From contig CANMML010000002.1 of assembly GCA_947499005.1 (NCBI GenBank), positions 124,001-188,000 on the forward strand: 64,000 nucleotides of DNA. Reading direction: 5' to 3'. Shown here one piece after another: positions 27,660-34,554 of this stretch. The translations under genes were made by a program, and so were the position numbers. This DNA is from an uncultured Aquimarina sp. (GTDB lineage: Bacteria > Bacteroidota > Bacteroidia > Flavobacteriales > Flavobacteriaceae). The notes beneath the pieces were generated by a model that saw only the letters and a list, made by a program, of their open reading frames with translations, made no database searches and had not been told where the DNA came from. The stretch's first letter is position 1. Every line of letters begins with the position of its first letter.

Positions 27660-28967
27660 ATGGATGTACTTTTTCAAATAGGACAATTTGTTCTAATGAT
27701 ATCTATTTTGGTAATTCTTCATGAATTTGGACATTACCTTCCAGCAAAACTTTTTAAGGTTAAGGTCGAGAAATTCTTTCTCTTTTTTGATGTTAAGTTC
27801 GCATTATTCAAAAAGAAAATAGGAGAAACTACTTGGGGGGTAGGTTGGTTACCTTTAGGTGGATATGTAAAGATTGCGGGGATGATCGATGAAAGTATGG
27901 ATCGCGAGCAAATGGCACTTCCTCCTCAGCCTTGGGAATTTCGCTCTAAACCTGCATGGCAGCGTTTAATTATCATGTGTGGTGGTGTCATCGTTAATTT
28001 TTTGTTAGCCTGGTTAGTATATACCTGCCTTTTATTTAATAACGGAGATACGTACATACCTGCTGAAAACTTAAAATATGGTATAGAAGTAGATTCAATA
28101 GGAGCTGCTTTAGGTTTTAAAAATGGAGATAAAATATTAAGTGTCGATGATAGACCCATAAAGAAAATTAATCAAGCGGTATTAGAAATTTTATTAGGTG
28201 ATAAGGTCGTTGTAGATAGAGAAGGGAAAGAAGTGGTTTTGGAGCTTACAGATGAGCATAAGAAAATACTTTTCTCGAATACAGAAAGAGCATTTATAAG
28301 TCCAAGATTTAGTAGTGTTATTGGTTTTATTGCAGAAGGTTCAACCGCAGAAAAGAATGGGCTAAAGCTAGATGATGAAGTTTTAAAGAGTAATGGGAAG
28401 TCAACTCCCTTTTGGTCTGCTTTTAGAGATGAGATTATTGCATCTAAAGGTGATACATTGCATTTAGAAATAAAGAGAGGAAATGCCATAATAAATAAGA
28501 GTATTCATCTTACAGGTGATGGGAAGTTAGGAATTTACCCTTCTAGTAATAATCTTTTAGTTACAGATAGATATAGTTTTATTGAAGCCATTCCTAAGGG
28601 ATTAAACAAAACTATAGAAGCCTTATCTGGTCAGGTGAGACAATTTAAAGTGATATTTAATACCAAGACAGAAGCTTATAAAAAAGTCTCAGGCCCAGTA
28701 GGTATTGTTCAAATGATGCCTCAAGAGTGGGATAGCTCTTTTTTCTGGAGTTTTCTAGCAATGTTTAGTGTTTGGTTAGCATTTGTAAATATATTGCCTA
28801 TACCGGCTTTAGATGGAGGTCATGTGATGTTTTTGCTTTATGAAATGATTTCAGGCAAAAAGCCTAGTCAGCGTGTATTAGAGATTGGACAGATTATCGG
28901 CTTTGTTATTGTCATGGGACTTATGGCAATAGTATTTGGGAATGATATACTTAACTTATTTAAGTAA
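27660..28967 (+). CDS. rseP: RseP-type site-2 zinc metalloprotease
   Basis: 435 aa intramembrane protease that cleaves membrane-bound anti-sigma factors and signal-peptide remnants. The zinc motif HEFGH is at 21-25, the second metal ligand is in PALDGGH near the C-terminus, and two PDZ-like regions lie between (about 110-200 and 215-290; SAEKNG-type and GLKLDDEVLKSNGK loops). Four to five transmembrane helices are visible. Length is normal for the family. It may act on FecR-type anti-sigma factors such as the one at 61.2 kb (inference). Confidence 0.94.
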   Translation: MDVLFQIGQFVLMISILVILHEFGHYLPAKLFKVKVEKFFLFFDVKFALFKKKIGETTWGVGWLPLGGYVKIAGMIDESMDREQMALPPQPWEFRSKPAWQRLIIMCGGVIVNFLLAWLVYTCLLFNNGDTYIPAENLKYGIEVDSIGAALGFKNGDKILSVDDRPIKKINQAVLEILLGDKVVVDREGKEVVLELTDEHKKILFSNTERAFISPRFSSVIGFIAEGSTAEKNGLKLDDEVLKSNGKSTPFWSAFRDEIIASKGDTLHLEIKRGNAIINKSIHLTGDGKLGIYPSSNNLLVTDRYSFIEAIPKGLNKTIEALSGQVRQFKVIFNTKTEAYKKVSGPVGIVQMMPQEWDSSFFWSFLAMFSVWLAFVNILPIPALDGGHVMFLLYEMISGKKPSQRVLEIGQIIGFVIVMGLMAIVFGNDILNLFK

Positions 28968-28996
28968 AGTTTTTTCATTTTTTTTGATCTAAAATT

Positions 28997-29026
28997 TTGT
29001 CGCATGGTAGGTTTGTTATATATTTG
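28997..29026 (+). promoter_or_regulatory. Promoter of tRNA-Asn
   Basis: TTG at 28997-28999 and TATATTTG at 29019-29026, with 19 nt between, match the Bacteroidota consensus. The leader before the tRNA is about 85 nt. Confidence 0.72.
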
Positions 29027-29118
29027 CACCCGCAATCGCAGTAAAGCGGTAGCCATTTAAAGTTAAGCTACGCGAAAGCTGTTAATTTTCGCACCTTGAA
29101 ATAGTTCTATATGAACAT

Positions 29119-29192
29119 TCCTCCTTAGCTCAGTTGGTTAGAGCATCTGACTGTTAATCAGAGGGTCCTTGGTTCGAGCCCAAGAGGGGGAG
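29119..29192 (+). tRNA. tRNA-Asn (GTT)
   Basis: 74 nt without encoded CCA. The acceptor stem TCCTCCT pairs with AGGGGGA (one G-T pair), the D-arm is TAGCTCAGTTGGTTAGAGC, the anticodon loop is CTGTTAA with anticodon GTT, and the T-arm is CTTGGTTCGAGCCCAAG. It is followed by a terminator. Confidence 0.96.
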
Positions 29193-29200
29193 CTTTTATG

Positions 29201-29230
29201 ACAAACACCGTACATTGTATGGTGTTTTGT
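29201..29230 (+). terminator. Terminator after tRNA-Asn
   Basis: ACAAACACCGTAC, loop ATT, GTATGGTGTTTTGT: an 11-bp stem with one G-T pair and a T run, directly after the tRNA. Confidence 0.75.
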
Positions 29231-29328
29231 TGTTTATAGCCTTATTTTATGCGGTATCCCAGCGGTTGAATCCGGTTCGAGAATGCCATTATAAAATTAT
29301 GGGATTTTTGAGCGATTTCTCGAACCGC

Positions 29329-29838
29329 TTAAATAGTTGTGTAGTCAAATTCAAAATTATGCTGATATGGGTTTCTCTTACATATTATACGTGCACCTCC
29401 TCTTTCTCCTGAAACCATAGTCATTTTAGATTTACAATTAGGACAAACGATACTGACTTTGTTTAATGAAATTTGATCATTTGTGAATTGCAAGTACATA
29501 TTGGGAAATACGCATATAAACTTCTGTCTTTGTAGAGTATTACCGACTAGAAAGAGCATCATAAAAGCTAATGCTCCAAACATCAATATCGTAAATATAA
29601 ACGTGGAGTTTAATTTAAGAGTCGCTAGATAACCTAAAATTGTAACTATATTCGAAAGAAAACCTATAATCCCTATTATAGAAATTCTTTGAGGAGAAAC
29701 ATTTAGTTTGAATAGCTCGGATTTATTACTCACCTCTACTTCAGTCATATTATTTCTTCCGTCAATAGCAATATCTAAATTTTTAATTTTACCTATATTT
29801 ATGGAATTATCTCCATTTGAGATATTTGTATTTTTCAT
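29329..29838 (-). CDS. Membrane protein with C-terminal zinc-ribbon-like motif (unknown)
   Basis: 169 aa. The N-terminal 55 residues are polar, followed by two helices (about 54-74 and 80-103) and a soluble end with CPNCKSKM and a later Cys, suggestive of a zinc ribbon. I do not recognise the family. It starts 1 nt after the stop of the short upstream frame (29840-30013), so they form one transcript. All 11 glycines use GGN codons and none UGA, unlike the neighbouring foreign genes, so this gene probably belongs to the flavobacterial side of the junction. An interrupted inverted repeat (GGTTCGAGAA / TTCTCGAACC) lies just downstream at 29273-29322. Confidence 0.55.
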   Translation of the reverse strand: MKNTNISNGDNSINIGKIKNLDIAIDGRNNMTEVEVSNKSELFKLNVSPQRISIIGIIGFLSNIVTILGYLATLKLNSTFIFTILMFGALAFMMLFLVGNTLQRQKFICVFPNMYLQFTNDQISLNKVSIVCPNCKSKMTMVSGERGGARIICKRNPYQHNFEFDYTTI

Positions 29839-29839
29839 A

Positions 29840-30013
29840 TTACGCTACATCATTTATTATTTTGTTCCAGTTTAAATGTGGATAATGTTCCTTAGCATAT
29901 AGTCTAAACTCTAGTAAAGAGCCTTGATATTTTAATACAAAATCGATTAATTCTCCTTTAGGTTTTTTATAATCTTTATGTATTCTTTTTACGATTAATT
30001 TTCGAGTGATCAA
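29840..30013 (-). CDS. Possible 5'-truncated host gene at foreign-DNA junction
   Basis: An open frame on the minus strand encodes RKLIVKRIHKDYKKPKGELI...HLNWNKIINDVA before a TAA at 29840-29842. The only start is a TTG at 30013; otherwise the frame continues into sequence antisense to the methylase fragment and meets a stop. Because the methylase on the other strand is also missing its start at the same place, this is best read as a gene cut off by the junction. Function not recognisable from 57 residues. Confidence 0.4.
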   Translation of the reverse strand: MITRKLIVKRIHKDYKKPKGELIDFVLKYQGSLLEFRLYAKEHYPHLNWNKIINDVA

Positions 30014-30320
30014 GAGTAGAGATCATAAGGAAGCTTTCTTCTATTGTGATCCTCCATATATAGCAGAGCAACCTGTCAATCAAGGTCACTATGCTGGATT
30101 TACTCCTGAAGATTATATTGTGCTATTGGATACACTTTCCAATATTAAGGGTAAATTCTTATTATCAAATTATCCCTCTACGATACTGGATACTTATATC
30201 AAACGTAATTGACGGTATATTGTAGAACTTCCTTGAAAGATTACTGCTAATAACGCCAATGGAAATAGGAAAAATAAAATAGAACTACTAGTTGCTAATT
30301 ATCCGATAACCCAAGTATAA
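30006..30320 (+). pseudogene. 5'-truncated D12-class DNA adenine methylase, UGA = Gly
   Basis: 104 codons ending at TAA (30318-30320), entered in frame at a GTG that is probably only the junction. The D12 family methylates adenine in DNA. Motif IV is present as FFYCDPPY, followed by GHYAGFTPEDYIVLLDTL, KGKFLLSNYPS and KNKIELLVANYPI. UGA codons at 30210 and 30234 give RN-G-RY and LP-G-KI; family members have NG at the first site. The N-terminal domain, with the AdoMet-binding FxGGG motif (normally some 150 residues), is absent, and I could not find it in another frame upstream. Confidence 0.75.
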
Positions 30321-30321
30321 G

Positions 30322-30519
30322 ATGACTACACTAGAACAATTTAAAAAATACTTACCGAAAGAATATCTAGACAATCCTGATGAAAAATTGGAAGCTCTAC
30401 TCAATATGTTTCGTAAAATGGCAGCTATATGTATGCAAATTGCAAAAAAAAGAAAACAAAAAGAGAGTGAAAATTGCATTGAAAAGCCTGATGATTATAA
30501 TATAAGGAGGAAGTTATAA
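30322..30519 (+). CDS. 65-residue protein between methylase and recombinase
   Basis: An ATG 1 nt after the methylase stop opens a 65-codon frame with no glycine and no UGA. The product is a charged helical peptide (MTTLEQFKKYLPKEYLDNPD, then Lys/Glu-rich). It lies in the same compact gene string, 29 bp before the recombinase ATG, so it probably belongs to the same foreign element. No family recognised. Confidence 0.5.
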   Translation: MTTLEQFKKYLPKEYLDNPDEKLEALLNMFRKMAAICMQIAKKRKQKESENCIEKPDDYNIRRKL

Positions 30520-30548
30520 CACTTTATTAGGTAATCATTAAAGCCCTA

Positions 30549-32183
30549 ATGGATAATTCAAAAGTGGTAATATATACAAGGGTATCCTCTAAAAATCAAG
30601 TACGTACATGAAACGGATTAAGCAGTCAAAAAAGAATGTGTGATGAATATGTGAAAAATAATAATATGTCTGTAGCTAAATACTTTAGTGATGGATGAGT
30701 ATCCTGAAAATACATCTCAAGAGAAGGGCTAGATGCTATGATTAATTATCTCTCGGAAGTGAATAAGAAGTTTACTAGTGTTCAATATGTAATTGTAGAT
30801 GATATTGATAGAATCATTAGAGATGTACAGGGACGGTGGGATATCAAGAGTAAAATCGAAGCACAATGAGGTGCTAAAATCTATTCACTCAAACAAAATA
30901 TTGATGATACTCCTGAAGGAAAAATGCTTCAAAGTATTACGATGTCCGTAAAACAGTACGAAAGAGAGAACAATGCTCGTAGGACTAGAGACAGGCAAAA
31001 GGCTAGAATGTTGAATGGGTATTATACTTTACAGGTAATTCCTTGATATGAATATATAAAAAACCCTTATGGTTCATGAAGTATTCTTGCGCCTTTAGAA
31101 GGAAAAGGTTTAATTATTAAACAAGGCTTAGAATTATTTGCTAATGGAGTTTTGCAACAGCAAATGGATCTTTTACGTTTTTTTCATGAAAAGGGTTTAA
31201 GAGGTAGAACAGGAAAGATACTGCACAAATCATTTGTAAATAAATTACTCTCTAAAAGAAGGCTTCTTCTTTATGCTGGTTATATTGATTATGAACCCCG
31301 AGGAATAGAAATGGTAAAGTGAAAACATGAGAAAATTATTGATCTAAGTACGGTATCCAATATTGAAGATAGATTAAAACGTAAATTTCAAGGTGTTAGA
31401 TTTACTAAAGATGAAGTAGCTACAAAGCTACCGATGAGATGAATTCTTAAGTGCTGACATTGTGATAATTTGGTTACAGGTGGGGCATCAAAAGGTAAAC
31501 TTGGAGTTTACTATTTTTATTATACATGTAGACAAAAATGATGCTGTAATTATGGTAAATCGGTGAATGGCGATAAGCTACATAAACTACTAGAAGAAAA
31601 GTTAGATAGCATCTCTATACAAGTGGATTTACATGAAAGCTTTAGAAAGGTATTATCCGATCTATCAGAGCAAGAACAAAGTACGGTAGTATTGTATAAA
31701 AAGGAACTCATAAAAATAGACAAGCAAATCCAAAGACTTCAAGAAAGAATTATAGATATAGAGGAGCCTGAATTAGTTACATTTTATGAAAAGAAAATTA
31801 AAGATATTATTAAAGAAAAAATGATGCTTACCGAAAAAATCGAGAATTCTCAAATAAGGATGAGAAACACTTTACGAACCCGATGAGATGCTAAGCATAT
31901 ACTATTGAATCCTTGATTACTATGGGGTATGGATGACTTACCTTTAAAGCGTTTGATGTTAAATACACTATTTGACAACAATATTTCATATACAAAAAGA
32001 GAGGGCAATCGAACCCTCTCTTTTTCCCATATCAATGGGGCTTTTGACAGTATTTTTTTACTCAAGTTCCTTACATCAGGGTATGCAGAACTTCTATCGA
32101 ACCCTGAATGGGTGTCTTTTTTGGAAGCTATTGATAAGTTACAGCCACTTGTAGATAGCATTAGAAGATTTGATCATGTGTAA
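30549..32183 (+). CDS. Large serine recombinase, readable only with UGA = glycine
   Basis: 544 codons from ATG to TAA with twelve in-frame UGA (codons 21, 50, 53, 107, 166, 177, 258, 298, 303, 331, 446, 456) and no UAA, UAG or frameshift. Domain order is normal for the family: resolvase domain with YTRVSSKNQ (catalytic Ser13), then the D-G-x-S-G motif, where codons 50 and 53 are UGA; TPEGK; Recombinase domain; zinc ribbon C-UGA-H-C...YYTC...CC, where UGA fills the CGHC glycine; coiled coil; C-terminal part. Tryptophan uses UGG. By hand count there are about 28 GGN and 12 UGA glycines. Such enzymes integrate or excise mobile elements. In this host, translation would stop after 20 residues. Confidence 0.88.
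31994..32025 (+). terminator. Perfect terminator-like hairpin inside recombinase frame
   Basis: AAAAAGAGAGGG, 8-nt loop CAATCGAA, CCCTCTCTTTTT: a perfect 12-bp stem followed by Cs then mixed sequence, symmetrical on both strands. It is inside the open recombinase frame, about 160 bp before its stop. It could end transcripts in either direction. Confidence 0.5.
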
Positions 32184-32610
32184 ATGTCTTTTTATAATTA
32201 ATGAAATTTTATTGATTAAATGGAGAGTCAGTTGTTATGATTAAGTGATATTGCTCTTCGGTGTTTTTGCTTTTTTAAGGATAATATAGATATGGATTTT
32301 CAACAGAATTTTTGGTGTTGTTTTTAAGGTTTGGTTTTGTTGGAAGTTTTGTGGTGATAGTTAAGAAATAGAGAAAAAGGCAAGAGAAAAGTTATCTAGA
32401 TGTGTGGTTGAAAAAGAATGAAATAGGCAGGAATATTTAGGTTAAGGAGCCTGCGGAGCTTGGCTGCAAGTTAGCATATTACCCCGTAACCGAGAGAAAA
32501 TGCAAACTTGCAAGGGAGCGGAAACGCCCCCTTTGAACCCCACATCAAGTTTTAATATTCTGTCATTAAGAGGTGCTTTTATGAGTGAAAACAGATATTC
32601 ATGGAATAAT
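32184..32610. other. Gene-free segment containing an oriT-like hairpin region
   Basis: No credible gene. The first 250 bp are AT-rich and unassigned, and must hold the right edge of the foreign fragment. From 32441 to about 32540 the base composition shifts to roughly half GC. This part has an inverted repeat, GCAAGTTAGCAT (32466-32477) against ATGCAAACTTGC (32500-32511), then a second small stem GGGAGCG-GAAA-CGCCCCC (32514-32531). From memory, similar GCAAGTTAGCAT...AACTTGCAAGGG segments lie next to mobilisation genes in Bacteroidota conjugative elements, so this may be an oriT remnant. No relaxase gene accompanies it. Confidence 0.45.
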
Positions 32611-34554
32611 TTATCCCCAAATTTGTTTGCCATTGTCGTCCACAAAAAAAATCATTTCATCACTTCCTTTTGTTCTATCTCTTAACCAAAGAACACTATT
32701 TTCGGGACAGATGAATTCTATATAATTATTTTTAGCTTCTTTGATCCCCAAAGAAACCCATTTATTTTCATTCCAATAGAAAAGTTCATAATCATCACCT
32801 TTTTCTATAGTATTAAATGAATTTCTAAATAAATATCTAAACCCGCCTATTTTTGTAGGTCTACCAAGATCTAAACCGACCCAGCATTTTTCGTTACAAT
32901 CAAAGTTAGTTCTAATGTCTTCGTCATAAAGATTATTTACGTTACTTTTATTGTTAGTATTTAAGTTAATACCATTTAGCTTTTGTCCTTTGTCATTTAA
33001 AAAATGGATTTCTGCTAAATGTGCTTCATTTTGATATTCAGGTGACATTGGTATTCCATCACCTGAAACATATCTTATGTAGCGAAATTGAACAGGTTTT
33101 ATTTTAATTTCTTCTAATTTTTGAGGAATATCTTTTATTTTATAAAGAGTTTTAGCGTTTCTGAAATTCGAGTTGTTACTCCCTTCGAAATAAGTGTTTA
33201 GCATTAACGATGCGTGAGCATTTTCATTATAGTTAAGTTCATTTTTTCTGAAAATTTTGACTTCTTTATTTATATTAGAAGCTTTAAGTATTATTTTTTT
33301 TCCATCTTTTAATAAATAGAACGGTGAACCAGCAGAAAAATACTTTCCTTTTTCAAAAAACATTGGATTATATATTTTTTTAATTCCAACTTGTGTGAAA
33401 TATGCATTTTCTCCATTTATAATTGACCAATCTACAGCATTCCAGCCTTTCTTAAAATTATCGTATTCACACAAATAAACATATTTATGATTTTTATTAT
33501 TGTCAATACTAATTTTGATATTACTTGTATAGGTGTGTTCAGAAGTTACATCTTTAGAGTGTCTATTTAGAAATTGAAGAGGTATAGTGCTTTTATCGTC
33601 AGAATTGAAATAATCTGGTTGCATTCGATATGAAACTTCATAAATTTTAGAATATTTGGCCTTTCTTTTTTCGGTAACATATTTTGCGTTTATATTGGGC
33701 GGGGATTTGAATTCCCAATCTAAAAATTTTTTATTTTTATCAGGGATTGCAACCCAACTGGTTGCTCCAGGAGCAAAGAGTTGTTTGCATGGAATTCCTA
33801 ATGAACGTAAGACAGCTAATTTTAGACTTGAGTGATTTCTACAACTCCCATATTTTCCTTTAAAAATATCACTGACAGGAATATTGCTATAATTGTAAAA
33901 AACTTTATGCCATCTAAACCAATTTATACTATCATTGATTAATTGTGTAGCCTTTATAAAGTCATCATCTTTTATTGAATCTTTAACCCATTTAAACTTA
34001 TCATATACGTCATTTCTCCAAATTTCAGGAGTATCATAGTAGTTTCTATATGGTAATACATAATTACAAAATTCATCGAAAGTATATTTTTTAGACCAAG
34101 GAACTTCATCCCACACTTTAAATCCATGTTCAATATTATCTATTAAAACATCAGATGTAATTGTCTCTAAGTCAAAAAGCTTCTTTGATTTAAGATTCCC
34201 ATACTTAGTATTTAATTTAGTCCACATTGAAGTAATTGTTGAATCATTTTTTAGGTTAATTTTTTCATCTCCTTTTATTTCTCCTCTATTACTAGGTTTT
34301 TTAAGTGTTTGGATTAATTTTTCTTGTGTCTTATTATAGAGGTGATATGATTTGTTACTCATATTTCCTATTAAAAAATAAGCCGCTTTTAGTTTTAAGC
34401 TGTCTTTAGGTTCATTGTAAGTATCAAAAACCTTTATTAACTCTTTTTCATTCTGACCTGCGAGTTTTAGAGCAAGTTTTACTTCATCTGAATATTTATT
34501 ACAACTTGTACTAAATACTACAAGAGCAATAAGATAATTTTTTATTCTAATCAT
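32611..34554 (-). CDS. Lipoprotein with transglutaminase-like and discoidin-like domains
   Basis: 647 aa. The lipobox FSTSC is at 14-18. Residues about 60-300 hold a transglutaminase-like domain with GKYGSCRNHSSLKLAVLRSLGIPC, where Cys238 is the expected nucleophile. The usual downstream His (HAWVEV) is replaced in GATSWVAIPD, so catalysis is doubtful. The last 150 residues (FRYIRYVSGDGIPMSPEYQNEAHLAEIHF...) match an F5/8 type C (discoidin) carbohydrate-binding fold. It is divergent from the Wzy-like gene, with 457 bp of non-coding DNA between, and may belong to that locus or be independent. Confidence 0.75.
   Translation of the reverse strand: MIRIKNYLIALVVFSTSCNKYSDEVKLALKLAGQNEKELIKVFDTYNEPKDSLKLKAAYFLIGNMSNKSYHLYNKTQEKLIQTLKKPSNRGEIKGDEKINLKNDSTITSMWTKLNTKYGNLKSKKLFDLETITSDVLIDNIEHGFKVWDEVPWSKKYTFDEFCNYVLPYRNYYDTPEIWRNDVYDKFKWVKDSIKDDDFIKATQLINDSINWFRWHKVFYNYSNIPVSDIFKGKYGSCRNHSSLKLAVLRSLGIPCKQLFAPGATSWVAIPDKNKKFLDWEFKSPPNINAKYVTEKRKAKYSKIYEVSYRMQPDYFNSDDKSTIPLQFLNRHSKDVTSEHTYTSNIKISIDNNKNHKYVYLCEYDNFKKGWNAVDWSIINGENAYFTQVGIKKIYNPMFFEKGKYFSAGSPFYLLKDGKKIILKASNINKEVKIFRKNELNYNENAHASLMLNTYFEGSNNSNFRNAKTLYKIKDIPQKLEEIKIKPVQFRYIRYVSGDGIPMSPEYQNEAHLAEIHFLNDKGQKLNGINLNTNNKSNVNNLYDEDIRTNFDCNEKCWVGLDLGRPTKIGGFRYLFRNSFNTIEKGDDYELFYWNENKWVSLGIKEAKNNYIEFICPENSVLWLRDRTKGSDEMIFFVDDNGKQIWG

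Follow-up and report, generated by a model that had tools for sequence, protein, structure and literature searches.

A serine recombinase gene apparently written with UGA as glycine in the chromosome of a standard-code Aquimarina

How has a gene crossed by in-frame UGA codons, yet otherwise intact, come to lie in the chromosome of a bacterium that uses UGA as a stop codon? We considered this question for a stretch of 64,000 nucleotides (the window) from an uncultured Aquimarina sp. (family Flavobacteriaceae), the genome of which (G000; 4.16 Mb in 190 contigs) is 98.8% complete and 0.61% contaminated; a SurA/PpiD gene neighbouring the locus has its nearest named counterparts in Aquimarina agarilytica and A. 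agarivorans (57%). Genomes that differ in their genetic code are generally expected to exchange genes less readily. The reading of UGA as glycine (code 25) is the rule of Gracilibacteria and Absconditabacteria, which are tiny and probably parasitic bacteria.

A preliminary description had claimed an intact serine recombinase frame at this locus, and both its translation (tables 11 and 25) and its domain matches agree with that claim. A single frame of 544 codons runs from ATG to UAA with twelve UGA codons (21, 50, 53, 107, 166, 177, 258, 298, 303, 331, 446 and 456), three UGG codons, no UAA or UAG and no frameshift. The run free of UAA and UAG extends over 550 codons, compared with a longest run of 157 on average and 225 at most in 100 simulated first-order Markov windows. 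Because antisense shadows can imitate recoding, we also examined the opposite strand, on which the longest ORF listed across the gene has 103 amino acids. The length of the frame and the number of UGA codons are by themselves no proof, because a false antisense frame with 26 UGA codons exists in another genome of the genus, G076.

When UGA is translated as glycine, homology spans the whole length of the product, and the closest relative among the matches listed, P0002, is 59% identical over 99% of it. The product bears the N-terminal catalytic domain of resolvases (PF00239, 1.1e-24, residues 6-157) and a zinc ribbon (PF13408, 2e-6; score 28.5 bits, cut-off 25.3), and it matches the phrog_95 integrase at 5.2e-64 and the sequence of the TP901-1 integrase at 1.7e-9. 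Its predicted structure (mean pLDDT 78, pTM 0.35), which we used as fold support only, resembles serine integrase complexes in Foldseek (2.7e-15, TM 0.29). R88 and R91 are invariant in an alignment of 30 rows, and R11 and S13 are present in at least 90% of them; we take these four residues to be the catalytic Ser/Arg set of serine recombinases. The recombinase domain PF07508 had no match in the product at E 0.01, and because this label is found in just 3 of the first 50 relatives listed, we read its absence as a matter of model coverage in this branch and not as a loss. Judged by its sequence, the gene read with UGA as glycine is one for a large serine recombinase. Like the serine integrases TP901-1 and Bxb1, the product has a resolvase domain, a zinc ribbon and predicted long helices; unlike theirs, its gene is written with UGA as glycine, lacks the PF07508 match and would be unreadable in its present host.

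Which amino acid does UGA encode here? We masked the UGA positions and aligned the product to 25 homologues without in-frame UGA; these rows, with 20 recoded ones, were what 68 matching loci yielded after duplicates, L017 (short) and L013 (one UGA) had been dropped. Summed over the twelve UGA columns, glycine scores +28.2 bits, followed by asparagine at -0.2, with tryptophan at -26.1 and cysteine at -30.6; by way of control, 25 of the 34 other codons with at least six uses recover their own amino acid, and nine do not. Glycine is the commonest residue in nine columns (21, 50, 53, 107, 166, 177, 258, 298 and 331; at column 50 it makes up 8 of 17 letters), so that the proposed alignment of the UGA columns to glycine holds overall. 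It does not lead in columns 303, 446 and 456, which, like the nine control codons that failed, counts against the reading. The more specific suggestion, that UGA falls where the family needs glycine, survives for codons 50, 53 and 298 but fails for codon 303 in the C-x-H-C motif, where the 25 standard-code relatives have Ser (9), Ala (6), Pro (3), Asp (2), Glu (2), Gly (2) and Thr (1); the same relatives have glycine at column 446 in no case and at column 456 in two. The 20 recoded relatives use UGA or GGN in most of the same columns (column 166: UGA 13, GGN 7), with the exception of 303, 446 and 456. These UGA codons appear to be sense codons, and the best assignment is glycine.

It is scarcely credible that the gene belongs to Aquimarina itself and has decayed through chance nonsense mutations, or that UGA in it stands for tryptophan or selenocysteine. 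Serine recombinases in the standard code are common in the genus, in which matches of recombinase type occur in 24 of 66 genomes, 22 of them having only the standard-code kind, and one UGG/UGA pair between the two copies discussed below would suit tryptophan. However, the matches in those 22 genomes are just 22-31% identical to the window product, twelve UGA codons stand against no UAA or UAG, and the column scores for tryptophan and cysteine are strongly negative. The UGA-type gene is carried by 2 of the 66 genomes, G000 (the full gene) and G076 (part of it).

Could the host read such a gene? In a recoded donor, UGA would be decoded by a tRNA-Gly with the anticodon UCA. No tRNA-Gly(UCA) was found in G000, in which 150 of 346 first-look candidates were scored and none of the 38 tRNA matches has a UCA anticodon; 37 of the anticodons were assigned by ARAGORN, and the 38th is GCA in the Rfam alignment. 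Because no tRNA with this anticodon was found, we judge the recombinase to be foreign and silent in G000: the ribosome would stop after 20 codons. The flanking genes had been said to use UGA as a stop, in keeping with which 5 of 38 host ORFs in the window end in UGA, a count that is indicative because the ORFs were called with the standard code. This 38th match, of 96 bases, was considered as a possible UCA tRNA-Sec and rejected for its GCA anticodon. This gene (L142, 101-196; G000:C1:201813-201908), missed by ARAGORN, is tRNA-like, of the Cys type, with a long variable arm, and the genome has an ordinary tRNA-Cys (L125) besides it.

We then asked in which organisms the relatives are found. 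Of 7989 candidate proteins scored, 162 matched and 120 were listed. Tryptophan occupies at least one of six glycine columns in 43 of the 44 database rows that the tree places among recoded sequences and in none of the nine that it places among standard-code ones, and we therefore read the former as UGA-recoded proteins that were translated by code 4. The sole exception among the 44, P0024, is named Candidatus Gracilibacteria and was translated with UGA as glycine; its DNA (L014) has 12 in-frame UGA codons in the matched stretch. This recombinase shares with the window product its clade and its in-frame UGA codons for glycine, but it is 37% identical, sits in a recoded genome and at its 3' end runs into a tRNA-Val gene on the opposite strand. 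We built two trees in which UGA positions and database Trp were masked (the UGA-derived glycines of P0024, used as protein only, could not be). The first, with 53 of the 120 listed database proteins, places the window gene inside a UGA-recoded clade of 45 rows (SH-aLRT 99); the second, made from 58 of the 100 rows of the first without the G076 fragment, places it in clades of 33 (100/98) and 12 rows (99/96). Every row of these clades counts as recoded, by its UGA codons or by Trp at glycine columns, and the named Candidatus Gracilibacteria protein is included; the serine recombinases of the host genus and order that were included fall outside. The best homologues thus look UGA-recoded and are not standard-code proteins of Bacteroidota, and the origin first proposed for the gene, in a UGA = Gly organism, its phage or its mobile element, is supported by the recoded clade and the glycine columns. 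One relative, L015 (JAUMYH010000071.1, 1-7359), lies on a contig filed under a Bacteroidota MAG, with in-frame UGA in all four main ORFs; we rejected it as a third transfer and read it as a likely mis-binned contig.

The foreign piece, of about 2.2 kb, consists of a cut methylase gene, a small ORF and the whole recombinase gene, with host-type DNA on both sides (Table 1).

Table 1. Features at and around the UGA-containing recombinase gene, in window coordinates.
Feature	Position	Strand	Remarks
Host tRNA-Asn(GTT), probable start of an insertion hot spot	29119..29193	+	
169-aa standard-code ORF on the left flank	29329..29838	-	Homologue in G011, same genus (35%)
C-terminal piece of a Dam-like D12 adenine methylase	30003..30320 (left edge approximate)	+	PF02086 1.1e-4; phrog_1996 8.3e-16
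Small ORF between methylase and recombinase	30322..30519	+	65 codons, 0 UGA, stop UAA
Large serine recombinase (UGA read as Gly)	30549..32183	+	12 UGA; PF00239; PF13408; phrog_95
Probable right end of the foreign DNA	32184..32283	+	G076 likeness stops near stop codon
Non-coding stretch	32284..32541	+	Matches the end of contig C236 in G076 at 85% identity
Host-type transglutaminase / F5-8 type C protein, right flank	32611..34554	-	Related DNA at other places in G000 and in G080

The preliminary description had seen the recombinase alone; we add the methylase fragment carried along with it and a second copy in the genus. The methylase piece holds about the last 100 residues, with two in-frame UGA codons and a UAA stop, and its N-terminal part is missing, given that five relatives have 260-292 aa. 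One of its UGA codons faces Gly and the other Gln in the two nearest homologues found, one from a Winogradskyella phage (47.5%), the other from a Persicobacter plasmid (52.1%). That just one of the two UGA codons aligns with Gly, and that these homologues belong to a phage and a plasmid of Bacteroidota, counts against the foreign-code reading. Weak likenesses of the 65-codon ORF (E 0.001-0.01) were to short ORFs directly preceding the recombinase gene at 4 of 22 relative loci and to one ORF placed elsewhere at a fifth. To the left, a 108-bp direct repeat of the 3' end of tRNA-Asn and the sequence after it (29181-29288 and G000:C2:199632-199739, 95%) bounds 46 kb, and similar repeats occur in G089 and, beside this tRNA, in G080, which suggests that this tRNA site is an insertion hot spot in several members of the genus. 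To the right, the non-coding stretch had no plasmid or phage match, and outside its own genome its matches were short and chance-like, in 15 of 397 genomes that were drawn from a larger family and evidently do not include G076. A comparison of the DNA from 28900 to 32700 with plasmids returned a match to the tRNA only (best 20 of 153 records); the three Rfam matches over 28950-32700 include the tRNA alone above the cut-off; and the minus-strand stretch left of the methylase held nothing usable in the one frame tried.

Such a juxtaposition might be produced by a chimeric assembly or a mis-binned contig, given that G000 is a 190-contig draft and that the recoded 7.4-kb contig L015 is filed under a Bacteroidota MAG elsewhere. 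We regard this as very improbable, because the piece is interior to a contig of 237,769 bp with host-type DNA on both sides, and because a related piece occurs in a second genome, on a contig of 29.7 kb whose following DNA has matches in 47 of 66 genus genomes.

This second genome, G076, of the same genus, has the last 199 codons of the UGA recombinase at another locus, 85% identical (84.7% in DNA). The fragment starts at base 141 of the 29.7-kb contig, after what we read as IS-like repeats, and the next genes encode large proteins that are RHS-like by a sub-threshold DUF6443 match. Read with code 25, the two copies have a dN of 0.10 and a dS of 0.46, giving a dN/dS of 0.22; the differences number 25, 13 and 49 at the three codon positions, and the one internal indel, of 12 bp, is in frame. 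Amino acids are kept at 159 of 199 positions, compared with at most 154 in 1000 neutral simulations, while the absence of UAA and UAG over a fragment of this length is not rare under neutrality (P 0.088). The codon pairs UGA/GGA and UGA/UGA are compatible with glycine; one UGA of G076 faces UGG (Trp) in the window copy, a change that would be silent if UGA were tryptophan. In other gene pairs of G000 and G076, dS is at least 1.6 in 8 of 8, near saturation, although some of these reciprocal best pairs, taken from 22 stretches of G076, are perhaps not true orthologues. The lower dS of the recombinase therefore indicates that its copies parted later than the species.

The low dN/dS and the excess of third-position changes suggest that the divergence took place mostly under selection as proteins in which UGA was glycine and, together with the different loci, that the two copies entered separately. 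We consider it probable that two entries from related recoded donors best explain the copies. A single import into Aquimarina, followed by spread between species and by decay, with the copy differences measuring the time spent there, seems unlikely to us. It would account for there being just two carriers, both in one genus, and equally well for the adjacent non-coding stretch being 85% alike in G076, which counts against separate entry; moreover, P0002 polarises seven amino-acid differences to each side and leaves 25 open. Yet it conflicts with the dN/dS and the third-position excess, which require that the UGA = Gly protein was under selection for most of the time the copies diverged, with the freedom of the window copy from frameshifts, UAA and UAG, and with the neighbours, which are a tRNA-Asn island in one genome and large repeat-type proteins in the other.

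What kind of element, then, might the recombinase have served? In 14 of 22 relatives (L014, L084-L088, L090-L094 and L097-L099; 12 recoded, two not), the 3' end of the gene overlaps a tRNA or tmRNA gene on the opposite strand, so that the attachment site appears to encode the last residues of the recombinase. Serine integrases with tRNA targets would be unusual. Ten proteins neighbouring the relatives were scanned, among them one methylase and one phage-type DNA primase, with most of the rest unnamed. From the overlaps and these neighbours, the relatives look like integrated elements with tRNA-type targets. In the donor, the recombinase may have acted as an integrase, integrating and excising a mobile element by site-specific recombination between attP and attB sites. 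The window copy has no such overlap of its 3' end with a tRNA or tmRNA gene; with this, the cut methylase and the stop at codon 21, we deduce that it was not self-integrated by a protein made in Aquimarina. The piece probably arrived by phage, on plasmid-like DNA or through uptake between touching cells, with a phage or phage-like element as the first choice of carrier, and was then joined illegitimately; the cut methylase at its left edge would reflect such joining or later trimming beside the tRNA-Asn hot spot. We conclude that the piece of about 2.2 kb very likely derives from a bacterium of the Gracilibacteria/Absconditabacteria type or from its mobile DNA, its recombinase requiring UGA as a sense codon.

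We think it decidedly improbable that an Aquimarina phage, itself reading UGA as glycine with a suppressor tRNA of its own, left its integrase behind, the recoded bacteria sharing the gene family. That relatives of the methylase occur in a phage of Winogradskyella and a plasmid of Persicobacter would agree with this, as would the phages that PMC10746230 links by spacers to other bacteria, some of which match Bacteroidetes and some of which, among those of Absconditabacteria, use code 25. Against it, the window has no suppressor tRNA, the part of its proteins that was scanned includes no phage structural gene, and an integrase, acting early, should not need a late suppressor. Matches of the recombinase in phage and plasmid records are distant (all 98 matching phage records are less than 60% identical), and viral contigs gave no close relative, with one match of 21%.

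PMC10746230 reports from spacer matches that, of nine putative Gracilibacteria phages that also match other bacteria, five match Bacteroidetes, all nine being compatible with code 11, and that two of five such Absconditabacteria phages use code 25. As in the window, mobile DNA is tied there to both recoded and standard-code bacteria, Bacteroidetes included; but that evidence is of spacer matches to phages, whereas the window has code-25 DNA inside a standard-code chromosome. Vampirococcus, an epibiont reading UGA as glycine, has ComEC and type IV pili that are thought to import host DNA, according to PMC8080830. Transfers from Bacteroidota to Patescibacteria in groundwater are described in PMC12455944, a direction opposite to that seen here. 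In the open-licence literature searched, we saw no description of a code-25 gene within the genome of a standard-code bacterium.

The gene family, the UGA = Gly code and horizontal transfer are each known already; what is new is a gene whose code does not suit the standard-code chromosome in which it is stranded, a situation that has probably arisen twice in the genus. We suggest, as a tentative reading, that UGA = Gly DNA is deposited time and again in Aquimarina chromosomes by recoded parasites of the Gracilibacteria type, or by phages which they and their partners have in common, and that such deposits, dead on arrival because of their foreign code, form low-background fossils of contacts. 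Fragments with in-frame UGA for glycine are easily screened for and could reveal which bacteria the uncultured Gracilibacteria and Absconditabacteria meet. Screens for recoded frames must exclude antisense shadows such as the false frame in G076 (L178, G076:C2, 2529-5099; about 856-880 codons), which we tried as a possible recoded contig and rejected, because it lies antisense to a repetitive gene of 1931 residues written in the standard code.
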